Notes under the pieces: model-generated
What the model was told of the DNA's origin: nothing
Seen by the model: the letters and a program-made list of their open reading frames with translations, nothing else
Database searches by the model: none
Assembly (NCBI GenBank): GCA_027484145.1
Contig: JAIXUH010000026.1
Span: 186,001-250,000 of the forward strand
From: Rhodobacter sp.
Lineage (GTDB): Bacteria; Pseudomonadota; Alphaproteobacteria; Rhodobacterales; Rhodobacteraceae
DNA: 64,000 nt
Direction of reading: 5' to 3'
In this document: positions 20,002 to 46,620 of the stretch, piece by piece
Position numbering within the stretch: the first letter of the stretch is position 1
How the letters are laid out: every line of letters begins with the position of its first letter
Made by a program: the position numbers and the translations under genes

Positions 20002-20033
20002 CCGCCACCCCAACCTGATGCTTGGCTGCGCAG

Positions 20034-20684
20034 ATGCCGATCACACCCCGCCTGACCGACCCCAACGCCGCCGCGCATGAGCGCCTGTACCGCAGTCTGC
20101 GCCAGCAGGTGATGCACGGCGAGTTGTCGCCCGGCCAACCCCTGACGTTGCGGGGGCTGGCCAAGGACTATGGCGTCTCGATGACCCCGGCGCGCGAGGC
20201 GATCCGCCGTCTGGTCGCCGAAGGGGCGCTGACGATTTCGTCGTCGGGCCGGGTGTCGACGCCCGAGTTGAGCCCGGAGCGGATTGAGGAACTGGCGGCG
20301 ATCCGGGCGCTTCTGGAACCCGAGATGGCGGCGCGGGCCCTGCCGCGCGCGCATTTCGCCCTGATTGAGCGGCTGGCGGCGATCAATGCCCTGAATGCCG
20401 AGGCGGCACTGAAGCAGGATGCCGTGGCTTATGTCCGCACGAATCTGGAGTTTCACCGGACCCTCTACCTGCGCGCGCAGGCCCCGGCGATGCTGGCCAT
20501 GTGTGAGACGGTCTGGCTGCAGCTGGGGCCGACGATGCGGGCGGTCTATGCCCGGCTGAAGCGCAGGGAGCCGCCCCAGCACCACCGGATGATTTTGGCA
20601 GCCCTGAAGGCCGGGGATGAGCCCGCGCTGCGGCTGTCGGTCCGCACGGACGTGACCCAAGGACTGCGGCATCTGGCGGGGTAG
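20034..20684 (+). CDS. GntR family regulator, FadR (FCD) subfamily
   Basis: A 216-residue regulator: an N-terminal winged helix (ERLYRSLRQQVMHGELSPGQPLTLRGLA, then VSMTPAREAIRRLVAEG) and a helical FCD ligand domain with the metal-binding His in LEFHRTLY and late His residues (QHHRMILAAL). The ATG at 20034 is preferred to a TTG at 20022; neither has a clear Shine-Dalgarno. No target gene is obvious beside it. Confidence 0.87.
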   Translation: MPITPRLTDPNAAAHERLYRSLRQQVMHGELSPGQPLTLRGLAKDYGVSMTPAREAIRRLVAEGALTISSSGRVSTPELSPERIEELAAIRALLEPEMAARALPRAHFALIERLAAINALNAEAALKQDAVAYVRTNLEFHRTLYLRAQAPAMLAMCETVWLQLGPTMRAVYARLKRREPPQHHRMILAALKAGDEPALRLSVRTDVTQGLRHLAG

Positions 20685-26735: not shown

Positions 26736-29693
26736 TCAAAGGGTCAGCGCTTCGGAGACGAGTGCCTCTTGCTCGGCCTTGTGGCGGCTGGCCAGACCCG
26801 TGGCGGGCGAGGCCGATGCCGCGCGACCGACATAGCGCGGACGCGAATGCTTGGCGCCAATCTTGGTCAGCACCCATTCGATATTCGGTTCGACAAAGGT
26901 CCAGTAACCCTGATTCTTCGGCTCTTCCTGACACCAGATGATTTCGGCACCCTTGAAGCGTTCGAGTTCCTTGACCATCGACAGGGCCGGGAAGGGGTAG
27001 AACTGTTCCAGACGCAAGAGATAGACGTCATCGGCGCCGCGCTTGTCACGCTCGGCCAGCAGGTCATAGTAGACCTTGCCCGAGCAGATCACGACACGCT
27101 TGATGGCGGCATCAGGTTTCAGCGAAAGCTCTGAATGGCCCTTTTGGGCGTCATCCCAAAGCACGCGGTGGAAGCTGGAGCCCGAGGTGAAATCTTCGGC
27201 ATCTGACACGCACATCGGATGTCGCAGCAGGGATTTCGGTGTCATCAGGATCAGCGGTTTGCGGAAGGACCGGTGCATCTGGCGGCGCAGGATGTGGAAG
27301 TAGTTCGCCGGGGTCGAGCAGTTGGCGATGATCCAGTTTTCGTTGGCCGACATCTGCAGGAACCGCTCGGGCCGGGCTGAGGAGTGTTCGGGGCCCTGAC
27401 CTTCGTAGCCATGCGGCAACAGGCAGACGAGGCCAGACATCCGCAGCCATTTGCTTTCGCCCGAGTTGATGAACTGGTCGAACATGATCTGCGCGCCGTT
27501 GGCGAAATCGCCGAACTGCGCTTCCCACAGCGTCAGCGTGTTGGGTTCCGACAGCGAGTAACCGTATTCAAAGCCCAGCACGGCGTATTCCGACAGCATC
27601 GAGTCGATGACCTCATACCGCGATTGTCCGGCGCGGATGTGGTTCAGCGGGTAATAGCGTTCCTCGGTGGTCTGGTCGATGAAACCGGAGTGGCGCTGCG
27701 AGAAGGTGCCGCGCGTGCAATCCTGCCCGGACAGACGCACCGGGTAGCCTTCGGTCAAAAGCGAACCAAAGGCCATGGCTTCGGCGGTGGCCCAGTCAAA
27801 ACCCTTGCCGGTTTCAAACATCTTGGCCTTGGCGTCCAACTGGCGGGCGACGGTCTTGTGAATATCGAACCCATCGGGATAGCGGGTCAGGGCGGCACCA
27901 ACATCCTTGAGCAACTCAGGCTTGATGGCGGTATCGCCGGGCTGGTATTCCTCGCGCTCCCGGTCAAGCCCGGACCAGCGGCCATCCAGCCAGTCGGCCT
28001 TGTTGGGCTTGAAGTTCTTCCCGGCCTCGAACTCCTCGTTCAGGCGCGCCTGAAACGCGGCCTTCATATCCTCGATCTCGCCCTCGGGGATCAGGCCGTC
28101 CTTGACCAGACGCTCGGTATAAAGCTGAAGCGTGGTCTTGTGTTTCTTGATGCTGTTATACATCGCCGGGTTGGTGAACATCGGCTCGTCGCCTTCGTTG
28201 TGACCAAAGCGGCGGTAGCAGAACATGTCGATGACGACATCCTTGTGAAAGGTCTGCCGGAATTCGATGGCAACCTTGGCGGCATGCACCACGGCCTCGG
28301 GGTCGTCACCGTTGACGTGGAAGATCGGCGCTTCGACCATCAGGGCAATGTCGGTCGGGTAGGGGGATGAGCGGCTGAAGGACGGCGCGGTGGTAAAGCC
28401 GATCTGGTTGTTGACGACGATATGAATGGTGCCGCCGGTGCGGTGGCCTTTCAGACCCGACAGGCCAAAGCATTCGGCCACAACGCCCTGACCGGCAAAG
28501 GCGGCATCGCCGTGCAGCAGGATCGGCAGCACAGACCCACGCTCGGGGTCGTTGTTCTGATCTTGCTTGGCGCGGACCTTGCCCAGAACCACGGGGTTCA
28601 CGGCCTCAAGGTGGCTGGGGTTGGCGGTCAGCGACAGGTGGACGGTGTTGCCGTCAAACACCCGGTCGCTGGAGGCGCCGAGGTGATACTTCACGTCACC
28701 CGACCCATCCACATCCTCCGGCTTGTAAGAGCCGCCCTGGAATTCGTGGAAAATGGCGCGGTAGGGCTTTTGCATCACATTGGCCAGCACCGACAGGCGG
28801 CCCCGGTGCGGCATGCCAATGACAATCTCTTTCACGCCCAGATTGCCGCCGCGCTTGATGATCTGTTCCATCGCCGGGATCAGGCTTTCGCCGCCATCAA
28901 GACCAAAGCGCTTGGTCCCCATGTATTTGACGTGGAGGAATTTCTCATAGCCCTCGGCTTCGACCAGTTTGTTCAGAATGGCTTTGCGGCCTTCGCGCGT
29001 GAACTGGATTTCCTTGCCGTAGCCTTCGATCCGTTCCTTGAGCCATGCGGCCTGTTCCGGGTCGGAAATATGCATGTATTGCAGGGCAAAGGTGCCGCAA
29101 TAGGTGCGCTTCACGATATCCATGATCTGGCGCATGCTGGCGACTTCCAGACCCAGCACCTTGTCGATGAAGATCGGGCGGTCCATGTCGGCTTCGGCAA
29201 AGCCATAAGAGGCCGGGTTCAGTTCCGGATGCGGGGTCTTGTCGCGCATGCCCAGCGGATCAACATCGGCGATCAGGTGGCCGCGGATACGATAGGCGCG
29301 GATGATCATCAGCGCGCGGATCGAGTCCAGCACGGCGCGCTGAATTTGCGAGTCTGACAGCGAGACGCCCTTTTCTTCGGCCTTGGCGACGATCTTTTGC
29401 GCGGCGGCACGGCTTTCCTTGACGGGTGCCACAGGCCATTCGCCCGTCATCGCGGCGGTCAGGTCATCGGTTGGCTGCGGCGGCCAGTCTGTGCGGGCCC
29501 ATGACGGACCGCTGGCCGCGCGCTTGGCGTCCAACTCGCTGTCACCAAGGCTGCGGAAGAACTCGGCCCAGGCAGCATCAACGGCATTGGGGTCAGAGGC
29601 ATAGCGCGCTGCCAGTTGATCGATGTAGTCCGCATTCGCACCGTCAAGGAAGGACCCGGCACGGAACTGGCTGTTGGGGGATTGTTCGGTCAT
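26736..29693 (-). CDS. sucA: 2-oxoglutarate dehydrogenase E1
   Basis: A 985-residue thiamin-diphosphate E1 that decarboxylates 2-oxoglutarate and succinylates the E2 lipoyl group. The start MTEQSPNSQFRAGSFLDGAN at 29693 matches family N-termini; the frame is open further upstream. GMPHRGRLSVLANV, then HGDAAFAGQGVVAE and NNQIGFTTAP form the cofactor site, followed by MFCYRRFGHNEGDEP. The ATG overlaps the TGA of the small membrane gene upstream. Confidence 0.97.
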   Translation of the reverse strand: MTEQSPNSQFRAGSFLDGANADYIDQLAARYASDPNAVDAAWAEFFRSLGDSELDAKRAASGPSWARTDWPPQPTDDLTAAMTGEWPVAPVKESRAAAQKIVAKAEEKGVSLSDSQIQRAVLDSIRALMIIRAYRIRGHLIADVDPLGMRDKTPHPELNPASYGFAEADMDRPIFIDKVLGLEVASMRQIMDIVKRTYCGTFALQYMHISDPEQAAWLKERIEGYGKEIQFTREGRKAILNKLVEAEGYEKFLHVKYMGTKRFGLDGGESLIPAMEQIIKRGGNLGVKEIVIGMPHRGRLSVLANVMQKPYRAIFHEFQGGSYKPEDVDGSGDVKYHLGASSDRVFDGNTVHLSLTANPSHLEAVNPVVLGKVRAKQDQNNDPERGSVLPILLHGDAAFAGQGVVAECFGLSGLKGHRTGGTIHIVVNNQIGFTTAPSFSRSSPYPTDIALMVEAPIFHVNGDDPEAVVHAAKVAIEFRQTFHKDVVIDMFCYRRFGHNEGDEPMFTNPAMYNSIKKHKTTLQLYTERLVKDGLIPEGEIEDMKAAFQARLNEEFEAGKNFKPNKADWLDGRWSGLDREREEYQPGDTAIKPELLKDVGAALTRYPDGFDIHKTVARQLDAKAKMFETGKGFDWATAEAMAFGSLLTEGYPVRLSGQDCTRGTFSQRHSGFIDQTTEERYYPLNHIRAGQSRYEVIDSMLSEYAVLGFEYGYSLSEPNTLTLWEAQFGDFANGAQIMFDQFINSGESKWLRMSGLVCLLPHGYEGQGPEHSSARPERFLQMSANENWIIANCSTPANYFHILRRQMHRSFRKPLILMTPKSLLRHPMCVSDAEDFTSGSSFHRVLWDDAQKGHSELSLKPDAAIKRVVICSGKVYYDLLAERDKRGADDVYLLRLEQFYPFPALSMVKELERFKGAEIIWCQEEPKNQGYWTFVEPNIEWVLTKIGAKHSRPRYVGRAASASPATGLASRHKAEQEALVSEALTL

Positions 29694-30098: not shown

Positions 30099-30983
30099 TT
30101 ATTGGTTGATTGCCTTCATCACAGCCTCGCCCAATGTGGCAGGGCTGTCTGCAACGACTATGCCAGCCGAGCGCATCGCCTCGATCTTGGACTCGGCGTC
30201 ACCCTTGCCGCCCGCGACAATCGCGCCGGCATGGCCCATGCGGCGGCCGGGGGGCGCGGTGCGGCCCGCGATGAAGCCTGCGGTCGGCTTCCAGCGGCCA
30301 CGCTTTTTCTCATCGGCGAGGAACTGGGCGGCGTCTTCTTCGGCGGCACCGCCGATTTCACCGATCATGATGATCGAATGGGTGTCGGGGTCGGCAAGGA
30401 ACATCTCGAGGATGTCGATATGCTCGGACCCCTTGATCGGGTCGCCGCCAATGCCGACGGCGGAAGATTGGCCAAGGCCCACGTCGGTGGTTTGCTTGAC
30501 GGCTTCATAGGTAAGGGTACCCGAGCGCGACACCACGCCGACCGAACCCTTGGAGAAGATGCTGCCCGGCATGATGCCGATCTTGCATTCGCCGGGGGTC
30601 ATCACGCCGGGGCAGTTCGGCCCGATCAGGCGCGATTTGCTGCCCTGAAGGGCGCGCTTGACCTTCATCATGTCCAGCACCGGGATGCCTTCGGTGATGC
30701 AGACGATCAACTCCATCTCGGCGTCGATCGCCTCAAGGATGCTGTCAGCGGCAAAGGGTGGCGGCACATAGATCACGGTGGCATTCGCTTCGGTCATGGC
30801 TTTCGCTTCATGCACCGAATTGAATACCGGCAGGTTAAGGTGCGAGGTGCCGCCTTTGCCGGGGGTCACGCCGCCGACCATCTTGGTGCCATAGGCGATG
30901 GCCTGTTCCGAATGGAAGGTGCCTTGGCTGCCGGTGAAGCCTTGGCAGATGACGCGGGTGTTTTCGTTCACGAGTACGGCCAT
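30099..30983 (-). CDS. sucD: Succinyl-CoA synthetase alpha subunit
   Basis: A 294-residue subunit that carries the phosphohistidine intermediate when succinyl-CoA is converted to succinate with nucleotide triphosphate formation. [17 protein letters not shown] is the CoA-binding Rossmann start, [20 protein letters not shown] the conserved centre, and [11 protein letters not shown] has the active His. The start at 30983 ([12 protein letters not shown]) is chosen over MQEAP. Confidence 0.97.
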
Positions 30984-31273: not shown

Positions 31274-32467
31274 TTACCCTTTCACCGCTTTGACGATCTT
31301 TTGCGCCGCATCCGACAGATTGTCGGCGGCGATCACGTTCAGACCGGATTCGTTGATGATCTTCTTGCCGAGATCCACATTGGTGCCTTCAAGCCGCACG
31401 ACGAGCGGCACCTTGAGCCCAACTTCCTTGACCGCCGTCAGAACGCCTTCGGCGATGATATCGCAGCGCATGATGCCGCCGAAGATGTTCACCAAGATGC
31501 CCTTCACGTTGGGGTCCGAGGTGATGATCTTGAAGGCCTCGGTCACCTTTTCTTTCGTAGCGCCCCCACCCACGTCAAGAAAGTTCGCAGGTTCGGCCCC
31601 GTAAAGCTTGATGATATCCATCGTGGCCATGGCCAGACCGGCGCCGTTGACCATGCAGCCGATCTCGCCCTCAAGCGCGATATAGTTCAGGTCAAACTTC
31701 GACGCGGCCAGTTCCTTGGGGTCTTCTTCCGTTTCATCGCGCAGCGCGGCAATGTCGGCATGGCGGTAAAGCGCGTTGGAATCGAAGCCCATCTTGGCAT
31801 CCAGCAGCTTCAGGTTGCCGTCCTTGAGCACGACCAGCGGATTGATCTCCAGCATCTCCATGTCCTTGTCGACAAAGAGTTGGTAAAGCTTCTTGACGAT
31901 CTGCACGCATTGCTTGACCTGCCCGCCCTCCAGCCCGAGGGCAAAGGCGACGCGGCGGCCATGGAAATCGGACAGGCCGGTGGCGGGGTCGATGTCAAAG
32001 GTCAGGATCTTTTCGGGCGTCTCATGCGCCACATCCTCGATCGACATGCCGCCTTCGGTTGAAGCGACGAACGAGATGCGGCTGGTGGAACGGTCGATCA
32101 GGACGGCAAGGTAAAGCTCGCGCTCGATGTCGGAGCCGTCTTCGATGTAGATGCGGTTCACGACCTTGCCGGCGGGGCCGGTCTGGATGGTGACAAGCGT
32201 GCGGCCCAGCATCTGGCGGGCAAACTCGCTGGCCTCTTCCACCGAACGGGCAAGGCGGACGCCGCCCTTTTCGCCGGCCTCGGGTTCCTTGAACTTGCCC
32301 TTGCCACGGCCACCGGCATGGATCTGCGACTTGACCACCCACAGCGGCCCGTCAAGCTCTCCGGCCGCTGTCTTTGCCTCTTCCGCGCGCATCACCACGC
32401 GGCCGTCCGAAACCGGAACGCCGTAAGACCGCAGCAGAGCCTTGGCCTGATATTCGTGGATGTTCAT
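31274..32467 (-). CDS. sucC: Succinyl-CoA synthetase beta subunit
   Basis: A 397-residue ATP-grasp subunit. [19 protein letters not shown] is the family start, [18 protein letters not shown] the nucleotide site, and [17 protein letters not shown] the C-terminal CoA-ligase domain. It is the first gene of a minus-strand run through lpd. Its upstream region carries three GTGATCAC palindromes at 21-bp spacing and a LacI-type half site. Confidence 0.97.
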
Positions 32468-32574
32468 GGGCCGTCCCCTCAGATCGTGATTTTTCCAGCG
32501 TGATGCCACGGAAAAGGGCGGCTGCAAAACCCCAAGTGCCAAGGATGCGTGAAAACCCCGGGAAATCCGACAAA

Positions 32575-32626
32575 TGTGATCACAGTCTTTCTGGCTGTGA
32601 TCACAGTCTGAAAATCCGTGATCACA
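32575..32626. promoter_or_regulatory. Three TGTGATCACA palindromes at 21-bp spacing upstream of sucC
   Basis: TGTGATCACA at 32575-32584 and 32596-32605, and CGTGATCACA at 32617-32626. Start-to-start spacing is 21 bp both times, two helical turns, so proteins bound would share a DNA face. The nearest centre is 112 bases before the sucC ATG. The same motif pair occurs before sdhC. The cognate factor is unknown. Confidence 0.75.
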
Positions 32627-33376: not shown

Positions 33377-33524
33377 GGTGGCCTTGTCAGAACTGGACGC
33401 CTGATGGTGTAGCCGCCGCCGCGCCGCAGGACCAGCCTTTGCCAGAAATGCCCCGACCTTGCCGCATTGGTGCCAATCTTTCGCAGCATCACCAAAGGGC
33501 TGTGTAAAGCGAGACTGTGAAAGA

Positions 33525-34910
33525 ATGGCTGCACTTACGTCTGTAATGATACCCGTCGCCCGGCCCAAAGCCGCGATTGCGACGCCGTCACCGCTGCTTG
33601 GCGGGCCCTTGGCCAATGTGATCACTGGCACGGCAGCGGCAGATTCGATTCTGGGCGAAGGCGGAACGGATGTGCTTTATGGCGGCGCGGGGCGTGACCG
33701 TCTGTTTGGCGGCCTTGATGCCGATACGCTTTATGGCGGGTCTGACGTCGATTATCTTGATGGCGGCGCTGGCGCTGACCGCCTTTTTGGCGATATCGGC
33801 AGCGACCTGATCTTTGGCGGGGCCGACAACGACTGGCTGTACGGCGGCAATGATCAGGACACGCTTTACGGCGGGTCGGGCCTTGATGTGCTGGATGGCG
33901 GATCGGGCGACGACAGCCTGTATGGCGATGCGGGCAGCGATCAATTGCTGGGCGGCGCGGGCGTGGACGCCCTGTTTGGCGGAACCGAGGACGACACGCT
34001 TTCCGGCGGCGATGGCAACGATAGCCTTGATGGCGGCGCGGGCCGTGACCGCCTGCTTGGCGATGCGGGCGATGACCGGCTGTTTGGCGGTGCGGAGGGC
34101 GATTGGTCCTATGGCGGGGTCGGCAACGACAGCATTTATTCCGGGTCGGGCGATGATGTGGCCGATGGCGGCGCGGGTGACGACGCGCTGTTTGGCGACA
34201 TCGGGCGCGACCTGTTGCAGGGCGGTGCCGGGCGTGACCGGCTTTATGGCGACAATGACGCCGACACGATCTATGGCGGGTCAGATGCCGACCTGATTTA
34301 TGCCGGATCGGGCGATGACAGCCTGTATGGCGAGGCGGGTGTTGACATGCTGGAGGGTGGCGCAGGCATTGACCGGCTGTTTGGCGGGTCCGAAGGCGAC
34401 CGTCTGTTTGGCGGTGGTGACGCCGATGAACTGAACGGCGGCGATGGCGATGACGCCCTGTTCGGCGGCACGGCGGCCGACCGCATCTATGGCGGCGAGG
34501 GCAACGACAGCTTTGACGGCGGCTCGGACGCTGACCGCATGTGGGGCGGCGGAGGGCGCGACCTGATGGCCGGGGGGGCAGGGTCCGACGACATCTTTGG
34601 CGGCGACGGCACCGACACCCTGATCGGCGGCAGCGGCAAGGACCAGCTTTATGGCGGCGAAGGGGCTGATGTCTTTGTCTTTGGCATCGGCGCATCGGAT
34701 GACGTGCTGGGCGACTTCAACCGCTTTGCCGGGGACCGCATCCAGATGGATGACGCCCTGTGGGGCGGTGGGCTGACGGTGCAAGACCTTGTGGCGCAGT
34801 TCGCCACACAGGTCGGCCCGAATGTGGAGCTTGAGTTTGCGACCGGCGAATTGCTCAAGATCCACAATGCCGACCTGTCGTGGGTGGCCAGCGTGATCGA
34901 AATCATCTGA
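33525..34910 (+). CDS. RTX repeat calcium-binding protein
   Basis: A 461-residue protein dominated by glycine/aspartate nonapeptides of the form GGxGxDxLx. I count 40 in-phase units without interruption from about residue 26 (GGPLANVIT) to 385. Such repeats fold into a Ca-binding parallel beta roll. The C-terminal 75 residues are unique (DDVLGDFNRFAGDRIQMDD and on) and probably hold the type I secretion signal; there is no N-terminal signal peptide. No catalytic domain is present and no ABC exporter genes are nearby. ATG 33525 is one of several possible starts. Confidence 0.85.
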   Translation: MAALTSVMIPVARPKAAIATPSPLLGGPLANVITGTAAADSILGEGGTDVLYGGAGRDRLFGGLDADTLYGGSDVDYLDGGAGADRLFGDIGSDLIFGGADNDWLYGGNDQDTLYGGSGLDVLDGGSGDDSLYGDAGSDQLLGGAGVDALFGGTEDDTLSGGDGNDSLDGGAGRDRLLGDAGDDRLFGGAEGDWSYGGVGNDSIYSGSGDDVADGGAGDDALFGDIGRDLLQGGAGRDRLYGDNDADTIYGGSDADLIYAGSGDDSLYGEAGVDMLEGGAGIDRLFGGSEGDRLFGGGDADELNGGDGDDALFGGTAADRIYGGEGNDSFDGGSDADRMWGGGGRDLMAGGAGSDDIFGGDGTDTLIGGSGKDQLYGGEGADVFVFGIGASDDVLGDFNRFAGDRIQMDDALWGGGLTVQDLVAQFATQVGPNVELEFATGELLKIHNADLSWVASVIEII

Positions 34911-43069: not shown

Positions 43070-43846
43070 ATGAGATACATATTTGCCCTTCTGCTGTCGC
43101 TGCTGCTGGCCCCCGTGGCCACGGCTCAGGTCTGGTCATCCCCCGACGGCCCTGCCGAGGTGACGGATGACGAGCAACTGGCCAACGCACAGGATGCCTT
43201 CCTTGCGGTGTTCTATCACGAGATGGGCCATGCCCTGATCGACATCATGGAACTGCCGGTTCTTGGCCTTGAGGAGGACGCGGCAGATGTTCTGTCGGTT
43301 GTCCTGATCAATGAGTTGTGGGAGGCCGAGGACAGCGAGAAAAAGGTGCGCGCTGCCGCCGGGTTCTGGGCACAAAGTGCGGCAGAATGGGCAGGCAGCG
43401 GCGAGGCCCCCGATTATGGCGGCGTGCATTCGCCCGATGAACGGCGCTATTACACCTATGTCTGCCTCTATTACGGGGCCGACCCCGAGGCCCGCCAATC
43501 CCTTGCCGCTGACCTGAGCCTGAGTGAGGACAGGGCCGAGTCATGCCCCGATGAATACCAGTTGGCCAATGATAGCTGGGGCCCTTACCTCGATGAGCTT
43601 TACGAGGCTGGCAAGGGCGAGTCTCTGGTCTGGGTCGAAGGCCAGGATGAGGACGACCCCTTTGTTGCCATGATGAAGGACGAGGTGGACTATCTGAACT
43701 CGATCCTCACGCTGCCGAAGCCGCTGACGGTGCAGGTCACGTCCTGCGGTGAGGCGAATGCCTATTACAGCCCTTCGGATGTGTCCGTGACCATGTGCAC
43801 CGAACTGGCTGATTGGATGTTGAACGGTGAGTCGGCCGATATGTGA
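43070..43846 (+). CDS. DUF4344 family putative metallopeptidase
   Basis: A 258-residue exported protein. The signal peptide is MRYIFALLLSLLLAPVATAQ. A zinc motif FYHEMGHALIDIMELPVLGLEEDAAD (mature N-terminal part) contains HExxH and a downstream Glu. Several Cys and many acidic residues follow. The family is a predicted gluzincin; the substrate is unknown. It ends just before the sdh regulatory region and is probably the last gene of the mcl2-mch run. Confidence 0.85.
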   Translation: MRYIFALLLSLLLAPVATAQVWSSPDGPAEVTDDEQLANAQDAFLAVFYHEMGHALIDIMELPVLGLEEDAADVLSVVLINELWEAEDSEKKVRAAAGFWAQSAAEWAGSGEAPDYGGVHSPDERRYYTYVCLYYGADPEARQSLAADLSLSEDRAESCPDEYQLANDSWGPYLDELYEAGKGESLVWVEGQDEDDPFVAMMKDEVDYLNSILTLPKPLTVQVTSCGEANAYYSPSDVSVTMCTELADWMLNGESADM

Positions 43847-43872
43847 TCACGCCTTAAAAAATCGTGATCACA
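43842..43872. promoter_or_regulatory. Two GTGATCAC palindromes at 21-bp spacing upstream of sdhC
   Basis: TGTGATCACG (43842-43851) and CGTGATCACA (43863-43872) are 21 bp apart start to start, the same motif and spacing as upstream of sucC. The first overlaps the end of the DUF4344 gene. The second centre is 160 bases before the sdhC ATG. Confidence 0.75.
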
Positions 43873-43891
43873 AAGCCTGAAAATCTGAAAG

Positions 43892-43903
43892 GTTAGCGCT
43901 AAA
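43892..43903. promoter_or_regulatory. LacI-type palindrome upstream of sdhC
   Basis: GTTAGCGCTAAA contains the perfect 10-bp palindrome TTAGCGCTAA. It is the best of three related sites in the window (sdhC, mdh, sucC) and fits LacI-family operators such as those described for CceR/AkgR. It is 124 bases upstream of sdhC. Confidence 0.6.
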
Positions 43904-44027
43904 ATGCGGTGCATGCGGCGTTGCAGCGCGTGACTTGCGCCAAAAATCATTTATTCAGAAAGCGAAAATCGAAGCGCGCCCCGGACCGGAACTGCGACGG
44001 GACAAGCCAGCGACGAAGGGAACCAGC

Positions 44028-44414
44028 ATGGCAGACGTTAAGCGGGTCGAACGACCCCTTTCTCCACATCTCCAGATTTACCGTCCGCAACTGACATCCT
44101 TGACCTCGATCCTGACGCGGATCACCGGCAATGGCATCATCGTGGCGGTGGTGCTGGCGGTGTGGTGGCTGTTGGCGGCGGCGACATCGGATGCGTATTT
44201 CGCAACGGCGAATGCGGTGGTGACAAGCTGGTTTGGCGATCTGGTGTTCACAGCCTCGCTCTGGGCGGTCTGGTATCACTATCTGGCCGGGCTGCGGCAC
44301 CTTTATTTCGATGCGGGCAAAGGGCTGGATGTGCCCACCGCCGAAAAGCTGGGCATCGCCTGCCTGATCGGGTCAGTCGTGCTGACCGTGATCATGATCG
44401 TACTGGTTCAGTGA
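44028..44414 (+). CDS. sdhC: Succinate dehydrogenase cytochrome b556 subunit
   Basis: A 128-residue membrane anchor of complex II with three hydrophobic helices. RPLSPHLQIYRPQLTSLTSILTRITG is the SdhC signature (quinone-site Ser and Arg), and HYLAGLRHLYFDAG carries the haem-ligand His. GAAGGGAA precedes the ATG. First gene of the operon. Confidence 0.96.
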   Translation: MADVKRVERPLSPHLQIYRPQLTSLTSILTRITGNGIIVAVVLAVWWLLAAATSDAYFATANAVVTSWFGDLVFTASLWAVWYHYLAGLRHLYFDAGKGLDVPTAEKLGIACLIGSVVLTVIMIVLVQ

Positions 44415-44817: not shown

Positions 44818-46620
44818 ATGACTGCCTATCCGTATGAAGTGCATGACTATGACGTGGTCGTTGTCGGGGCCGGTGGTGCCGGTTTGCGCGCCACGCTGGG
44901 CATGGCGGAGCAGGGCCTTCGCACGGCCTGCGTGACCAAGGTGTTCCCGACGCGCAGCCACACGGTGGCCGCACAGGGTGGCATCGCGGCCAGCCTTGGC
45001 AACATGGGGCCCGATAGCTGGCAATGGCACATGTATGACACCGTAAAGGGGTCTGACTGGCTGGGCGATACCGACGCGATGGAATATCTGGCGCGTGAGG
45101 CGCCCAAGGCTGTGTATGAGCTGGAGCATTACGGCGTGCCGTTTTCCCGCACGGAAGAGGGCAAGATCTATCAGCGCCCGTTTGGCGGCCATACCACCGA
45201 ATACGGCGAAGGCCCGCCCGTGCAGCGCACCTGCGCCGCAGCCGACCGCACCGGGCACGCCATTTTGCACACGCTGTATGGCCAAAGCCTGAAGAACAAC
45301 GCCGAATTCTATATCGAATACTTCGCGCTTGATCTTGTGATCACAGATGGGCGCTGCACCGGCGTTGTGGCATGGAAGCTGGATGACGGCACCATGCATG
45401 TCTTCAACGCCAAGATGGTGGTGCTGGCAACGGGTGGCTATGGCCGCGCCTATTTCAGCGCAACCTCGGCCCACACCTGCACCGGCGACGGTGGCGGGAT
45501 GGTGGCCCGTGCTGGGCTTCCGTTGCAGGACATGGAGTTCGTGCAGTTCCACCCGACGGGCATTTACGGCTCGGGCTGTCTGATCACCGAAGGCGCGCGG
45601 GGCGAAGGCGGCTATCTGACCAACGCCAATGGCGAGCGGTTCATGGAACGCTATGCGCCGCACTACAAAGACCTTGCGCCGCGCGACTATGTCAGCCGCT
45701 GCATGACGCTGGAAATCCGCGAAGGCCGTGGTGTGGGCGAACATGGGGACCATATCCACCTGCACCTGAACCACCTGCCCAAGGCGACGCTTGACCTGCG
45801 CCTGCCCGGCATTTCGGAATCTGCCCGCATCTTTGCTGGCGTTGACCTGACCAAGGAACCGATCCCGGTGCTGCCGACCGTGCATTACAACATGGGCGGT
45901 ATCCCGACGAACTATTGGGGCGAGGTGTTGAACCCCACCCATGACAACCCCGATGCCGTGTTCCCCGGTCTGATGGCCGTGGGCGAGGCGGGCTGTGCCT
46001 CGGTGCATGGCGCGAACCGTCTGGGCTCGAACAGCCTGATCGACCTTGTGGTGTTTGGCCGTGCTGCCGCCATCCGCGCAGGCGAGATCGTGAACCCCAA
46101 GGACCGCAATGTGCCGGTCAATGCGGCCGAGGTGGACAAGGCCCTGTCGCGCTTTGACGCGATGCGCCATGCCAGCGGTGCCACGCCGACCGCTGATTTG
46201 CGGTTGGAAATGCAGCGCACCATGCAGGCCGATGCCGCCGTGTTCCGCGCTGAAGAAACCTTGGCCGCAGGCGAGAAGAAGATGACCGCCATCGCCGCCA
46301 AGATGGCGGACATCAAGGTGACCGACCGCAGCCTTGTGTGGAACAGCGATTTGATGGAAACGCTGGAACTGACCAACCTGATGCCGAACGCGCTGGCCAC
46401 GATCTATGGCGCGCATGCCCGCACCGAAAGCCGCGGCGCCCATGCGCACGAAGATCACCCGACGCGCGATGATGCCAACTGGCGCAAGCATTCGCTGGCT
46501 TGGGTCGATGGCGCCAAGGTCACGCTGGATTATCGGGCCGTGCATACCGCACCCCTGACGTCCGAGGCGGATGGCGGCATCAGCCTGAAGAAAATCGCCC
46601 CGGCAGAGCGGAAGTTCTGA
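44818..46620 (+). CDS. sdhA: Succinate dehydrogenase flavoprotein subunit
   Basis: A 600-residue subunit that oxidises succinate to fumarate and passes electrons to Sdh[18 protein letters not shown] binds [19 protein letters not shown] carries the His for covalent FAD attachment, [21 protein letters not shown] the active-site loop, and [15 protein letters not shown] the C-terminal FAD block. Length is typical. A single GTGATCAC occurs in the coding sequence at 45337, without tandem partner. Confidence 0.98.

Follow-up and report, generated by a model that had tools for sequence, protein, structure and literature searches.

Tandem palindromes before sucC and sdhC in Rhodobacteraceae: probable operators of the GntR-family regulator AkgR

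Background

The window analysed here, a 64,000-nucleotide stretch of a Rhodobacter sp. genome, carries three copies of one short palindrome, regularly spaced, upstream of the succinyl-CoA synthetase gene sucC. Such an arrangement raises the question of whether it is a regulatory element of the tricarboxylic acid (TCA) cycle and, if so, which factor recognises it and how it acts. A first-pass annotation had proposed an unknown, possibly new, TCA-cycle regulator or, alternatively, a methylation-sensitive site.

Results

Palindromic sites and genes of the locus

Re-reading of the sequence bore out the positions and the exact spacing of the three palindromes. GTGATCAC is found at 32576-32583, 32597-32604 and 32618-32625, with spacings of 21 and 21 bp, upstream of sucC. 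The centre of the proximal site lies 112 bp upstream of the ATG, and the middle and distal sites follow at 133 and 154 bp; no strand is assigned to any of them. The proximal and middle sites form the pair which is kept in most of the relatives examined, the distal one being a third site. The longer word used to title the array in the first-pass annotation holds only in part: the GTGATCAC core is present in all three copies, but the context is TGTGATCACA at 32576 and 32597 and CGTGATCACA at 32618.

A second 21-bp pair, absent from that annotation, is located before sdhC, with the distal site at 43843-43850 (181 bp upstream of the ATG) and the proximal one at 43864-43871 (160 bp), again with no strand assigned. 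The sucC triple and the sdhC pair make up five of the eight exact GTGATCAC copies in the window, where shuffled sequences contain 0.94 on average and none of 100 shuffles reached eight. A lone copy, in the form of TGTGATCACA, lies at 45337-45344, within the sdhA coding region.

The gene sucC, encoding the succinyl-CoA synthetase beta subunit, extends over 31274-32467 on the minus strand (ATG at 32467) and contains ATP-grasp and CoA-ligase domains. It is followed on the same strand by sucD (30099-30983), named from its position and by eye from its sequence, and further downstream by the 2-oxoglutarate dehydrogenase E1 gene sucA (26736-29693), also named by eye from sequence; sucA thus stands behind the sucCD genes whose sites precede sucC. 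The gene for the succinate dehydrogenase cytochrome subunit, sdhC (44028-44414, plus strand), was recognised by its Sdh_cyt domain and is followed by the other sdh genes, among which sdhB was included in the profile scan. At 20022-20684, on the plus strand, a GntR/FCD transcription factor is encoded (PF00392 and PF07729; likely start ATG 20034), the AkgR orthologue discussed below. Next to the site array lies an open reading frame with a weak, below-cut-off methyltransferase match, and beyond it a protein containing 15 stretches of RTX calcium-binding repeats is encoded (33459-34910), which looks ordinary.

Across all 4,966,842 bases of the genome there are just three exact 21-bp pairs, of which two overlap within the sucC triple and the third is the sdhC pair; when two mismatches are allowed, three further places are added. 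The word with its letters reversed forms no pair in the genome, a weak control since it contains CTAG. TGTGATCACA is found 10 times in this genome, and at the seven of these that lie outside the window GTGATCAC is solitary within its 3-kb locus, with no TCA gene noticed by eye beside it. The geometry of sites spaced 21 bp apart is compatible with binding to the same face of the helix.

Conservation of the site pair

The survey of the family included 149 genomes from 148 genera, 133 of which contain a GTGATCAC pair with a gap of 1-30 bp; the reversed word yielded no pair in the same 149 genomes, a control again weakened by the CTAG inside it. SucC was matched in 140 of the 149, the remaining nine having no match at 1e-120. 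One genome, G021, was left out, its SucC being only a 54% match, and 139 regions were examined, i.e. 138 upstream stretches and the window. These include one stretch oriented by eye (L275) and that of genome G136, where SucC was located through a match of only 66%.

An exact pair at 20 or 21 bp was found upstream of sucC in 125 of the 139 regions. Within 600 bp of the gene, exact sites number three in 2 regions, two in 123, one in 1 and none in 13, and the spacing between neighbours is 21 bp in 115 cases and 20 bp in 12, with no other value. The region with one exact site (G040) contains a single-mismatch site 21 bp away, and two of the site-less regions, G017 and G109, have a one-mismatch copy near the usual place. 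Similarly, sdhC could be located in 103 of the 139 stretches and is preceded by an exact 20/21-bp pair in 91; ten of the 12 genomes lacking it carry a pair, or an exact and a one-mismatch site, at sucC. Taken together, the counts at the two genes show that the link to the TCA cycle is real, in support of the original suggestion of a TCA-cycle regulatory element; the possibility, raised at the outset, that the motif might be absent upstream of sucC orthologues does not hold.

Pairs are not scattered over unrelated places either, as had been considered. Eighteen relatives have at least three pairs with a gap of 1-30 bp; in 16 of them the 20/21-bp pair is present at two places. The remaining two have it at three: in G135 these are an overlapping triple and one more pair, and in G042 the extra one is a 21-bp pair before the TCA gene fumC (L324:1501-1529). 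In G136 a pair stands before sucA (L296:9754/9775), with the akgR orthologue about 6 kb away. Extra or moved pairs are still found before TCA genes, as at fumC in G042 and sucA in G136. A single GTGATCAC is also present in G136 just before the akgR orthologue (L296:3531) and might reflect self-control.

Three sites at sucC were observed in the window and in G135 only (2/139), both of the window's genus, probably Pseudotabrizicola; the third site is thus a genus-level addition. Three sites were likewise seen in three named loci of Pseudotabrizicola (L065, L079 and L083) and in one related MAG (L073). At sdhC, 22 of the 103 regions (L194, L198, L211 and L239 among them) contain a third GTGATCAC, located 99-270 bp further up in 17 of them, 56-57 bp in four and 13 bp in one.

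A sample drawn across the class, limited to genomes of 90% completeness or more, showed a 20-22-bp pair in all five family members and in 4 of 284 genomes from outside the family. Two of these four pairs precede TonB-receptor genes and two are contained within open reading frames of unrelated genes; no TCA gene was seen at any of them, and they were set aside as chance occurrences or sites of another regulator. The two TonB-dependent receptor cases, with 21/22-bp pairs (L292:5009-5038, L293:992-1020), belong to two genomes of another alphaproteobacterial family.

AkgR as the candidate regulator

A 2015 mBio paper on CceR and AkgR reportedly defined AkgR and named it a direct activator. A literature search for TGTGATCACA in combination with alphaproteobacteria gave no match, and the motif was reached through papers naming AkgR. 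In a passage of PMC6365646, the motif GtgATCAC is attributed to AkgR of Rhodobacter sphaeroides, a GntR-family protein (RSP_0981) which is termed a transcriptional activator there. According to an excerpt of PMC4344238, RSP_0981 is predicted to control sucCD (RSP_0967-6), sdh (RSP_0974-6) and 2-oxoglutarate dehydrogenase (RSP_0965-62); in the available portion of PMC7471390, a paper on R. sphaeroides transcription starts, AkgR is named in the reference list only. The locus has both features: the operator word is present in three exact copies before sucC and two before sdhC, and these two genes match the AkgR target set. Since motif and targets are already ascribed to AkgR in these sources, the regulator is not an unknown one, and the earlier notion of a new factor is not supported.

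The GntR/FCD protein of the window is 82% identical to its orthologue in G051, a genome in 7 contigs, of which the one used (3,188,524 bp) is presumably chromosome 1 of C. sphaeroides 2.4.1. There the orthologous gene follows sdhB at a distance of 0.75 kb and is the only GntR gene found within 57 kb, a position which fits RSP_0981 following RSP_0974-6, the link being made by gene order and the presumed genome identity. Among 80 named loci with an akgR relative, the stored flank contains lpd or suc genes in 51, sdh genes in 2 (both Gemmobacter, L134 and L140) and neither in 27; the gene labelled mdhQ by the script used for this survey is probably lpd, as judged from its sequence.

Co-occurrence of the gene and the sites was evaluated by taking as orthologues all matches of at least 62% identity (E <=2e-78), a line drawn after seeing the gap in the table, plus the G033 protein, 47% identical and counted by synteny, since it is encoded on the same contig as sucC. 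An orthologue is present in 123 of the 126 genomes with sites (125 with at least two exact sites, and G040). The three in which a pair is present and no orthologue was found are G019 (91% complete, 210 contigs), G096 (77%, 50 contigs) and G114 (listed as 100% complete, 320 contigs). The orthologue is missing in 12 of the 13 genomes without an exact sucC site, the thirteenth being G136; eight of the 12 have no match at 1e-20, and in the other four the relatives found are weaker (1e-26 to 2e-47). The Fisher test, uncorrected for relatedness, gives 7e-15 without G136 and 3e-13 with both G136 and G033 counted against the association. A SucC tree of 36 sequences, from the 12 genomes lacking sites and from 24 that have them, shows six label changes; only 6 of its 33 inner branches are well supported, but these require at least three of the changes, so that sites and orthologue were jointly absent through more than one event.

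Promoter geometry

Promoter profiles and A/T tests were restricted to the 21-bp pairs (113 at sucC, 81 at sdhC). When regions are aligned on the proximal site, the flanks are T-rich beyond the distal site and A-rich after the proximal one, and the centre of the spacer is rich in A/T.

Downstream of the pair, a -35-like GTGAC[ATC] occurs in 80 of the 91 sdhC regions, against 6.5% of shuffles; where several were present, the one nearest to the gene was used. It lies 61-64 bp from the proximal centre in 68 of the 80 regions, and the others are found at 51-53 bp (4), 74-75 (2), 90 (2) and 40, 65, 84 and 218 (1 each). A TA-rich -10 element follows 22 bp after GTGAC[ATC]. In the window, the predicted sdhC core promoter spans 43930-43957 on the plus strand (-35 GTGACT at 43930-43935, -10 TATTCA at 43952-43957), and its -35 lies at 62 bp, the position conserved in relatives. 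For sucC, TATA is found at 74-76 bp in 31 of 125 regions and T[TC][TG]A[AC] at 50-52 bp in 29, both occurring together in 16, compared with a background in which no separate 3-bp span exceeds 6; the core promoter is thus matched in a minority of sequences, and the -10 of the window's own sucC is poor. The distance from the proximal centre to the -35 is nearly fixed, at about 51 bp for sucC and 62 bp for sdhC, and the two promoters therefore differ by about one helical turn, sdhC being the longer.

Between the sites and the promoters, A/T content peaks at the same positions in both sets, namely 5.5, 14.5, 24.5-25.5, 35.5 and 45.5-46.5 bp from the proximal centre. The periodicity signal at the best period is 5.7 for sucC (10 bp) and 5.6 for sdhC (10.5 bp); AT-matched windows (300 draws each) reach 1.7 at most. 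When the four bases after the site are removed, signals of 4.6 and 5.1 persist for sucC and sdhC, with phase coherences of 0.85 and 0.89; on the far side of the pair, used as control, signal and coherence are 1.3-1.7 and 0.26-0.32. Kinship inflates coherence within one promoter, but fails to explain a phase shared by two unrelated promoters. In the window, the A/T tracts recur about every 10 bp over 32467-32575 and 43872-44027, as in the relatives, in the same phase to the proximal site. As far as can be read from sequence, these phased tracts suggest curved DNA between activator and polymerase, and the layout suggests activation from upstream.

Alternative explanations

The sites could instead form mainly a repressor array, bound by AkgR and released by a metabolite. 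Many GntR/FCD proteins are indeed repressors, as a matter of general knowledge, but the pair is placed well upstream of the predicted -35 (by about 51 and 62 bp) rather than over the core promoter, and AkgR is called an activator in the text cited above (PMC6365646); such a role is regarded as improbable. Only slightly less credit is due to the proposal that another, unnamed factor uses the word and that the akgR orthologue is merely co-inherited. The window genome encodes 15 FCD proteins, paralogues about 40% identical occur in a number of genomes, and three genomes have sites and no orthologue found. Set against this are the published assignment of the motif (again PMC6365646), the absence of the orthologue from all site-less genomes except G136, which has its pair before sucA, and the three or more separate label changes on the SucC tree, which make this explanation improbable too, marginally more so than repression.

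The least probable by a clear distance is a methylation-sensitive switch in which the embedded GATC is the functional element. GATC does lie inside each site, and the genome has one Dam-type methyltransferase gene (PF02086). The full 8-bp word is conserved, however, together with its T-rich preceding and A-rich following flanks, the word being exact there by selection and the flanks not. The sole D12/Dam-type adenine methyltransferase gene (G000:C22:11049-11750; L320:308-1102) scores 84.4 bits, below the cut-off of 114.85 of the NCBI Dam model (TIGR00571). No positive evidence thus emerged for the methylation-sensitive site initially suggested.

Discussion

The sites before sucC and sdhC are, with high probability, operators of AkgR, a GntR-family activator of the FCD subfamily that would be encoded at 20022-20684 and drive sucCD and sdh. 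In the proposed mechanism, one AkgR dimer would bind each 8-bp perfect palindrome, placing two dimers (three at sucC in the window's genus) 21 bp apart on one face of the helix, about 85-95 bp ahead of the predicted start of transcription. From there AkgR would contact RNA polymerase across A/T-phased, probably bent, DNA and would activate the sdh operon as well as sucCD, with sucAB-lpd, lying behind on the same strand, possibly co-transcribed.

A more specific version is offered tentatively, and is held with less than even confidence: the tandem sites would act as a cooperative two-turn array which reaches the polymerase from about 50-60 bp upstream of the -35, by way of A/T-curved DNA phased with the sites, the sucC and sdhC layouts being one turn apart and the third Pseudotabrizicola site tuning sucC. 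If true, this would represent a long-range, helically phased mode of activation for a GntR/FCD regulator. Proteins of this group have mostly been studied as repressors, and a conserved activator layout would be useful for that reason.

These results indicate that the circuit of AkgR, sucC and sdhC predicted for R. sphaeroides controls the TCA cycle widely across the family, and they provide a precise promoter architecture for it, in terms of tandem spacing, distance to the -35 and phased A/T tracts. What may be new is the family-wide geometry and not the regulator, as judged against literature searched for the motif and the regulator rather than for spacing or phasing.

Comparison with known systems

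CRP/FNR-type sites consist of the half-sites TGTGA and TCACA with 6 bp between them; this type was rejected, as the two half-sites abut here with no spacer. PMC4344238 states that no CRP-like proteins are predicted for R. sphaeroides. The LacI-family regulator CceR (RSP_1663) of R. sphaeroides is also predicted, in the same source, to regulate central carbon genes including sdh, and an excerpt of PMC11323563 lists succinate dehydrogenase, 2-oxoglutarate dehydrogenase and fumarase in the R. sphaeroides CceR regulon, but not in that of Paracoccus denitrificans. The predicted CceR motif, [AGT]GTT-N6-8-AAC[ACT], differs from GTGATCAC (PMC4344238), and CceR sites were discarded as a candidate, the three repeated words not being of that form.

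A further counterpart is PS417_07240 of Pseudomonas simiae, described in a section of PMC6365646 as 32% identical to AkgR, with GTGATCAC as predicted palindrome. It is the predicted regulator of a deoxyribonate oxidation cluster, with targets other than those in the window, and its site is described as a single palindrome placed at -47 to -40 relative to the start codon.

The AkgR regulon of Rhodobacter (Cereibacter) sphaeroides resembles the present locus in the 8-bp word, in the targets sucCD and sdh with sucA downstream on the same strand, and in having the GntR-family regulator gene in the same neighbourhood. The window differs in its third tandem sucC site and in the location of akgR, which is on the suc side of the cluster and not beside sdhB. 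In short, the locus represents an already known regulon, found in a new species and enlarged by one operator.
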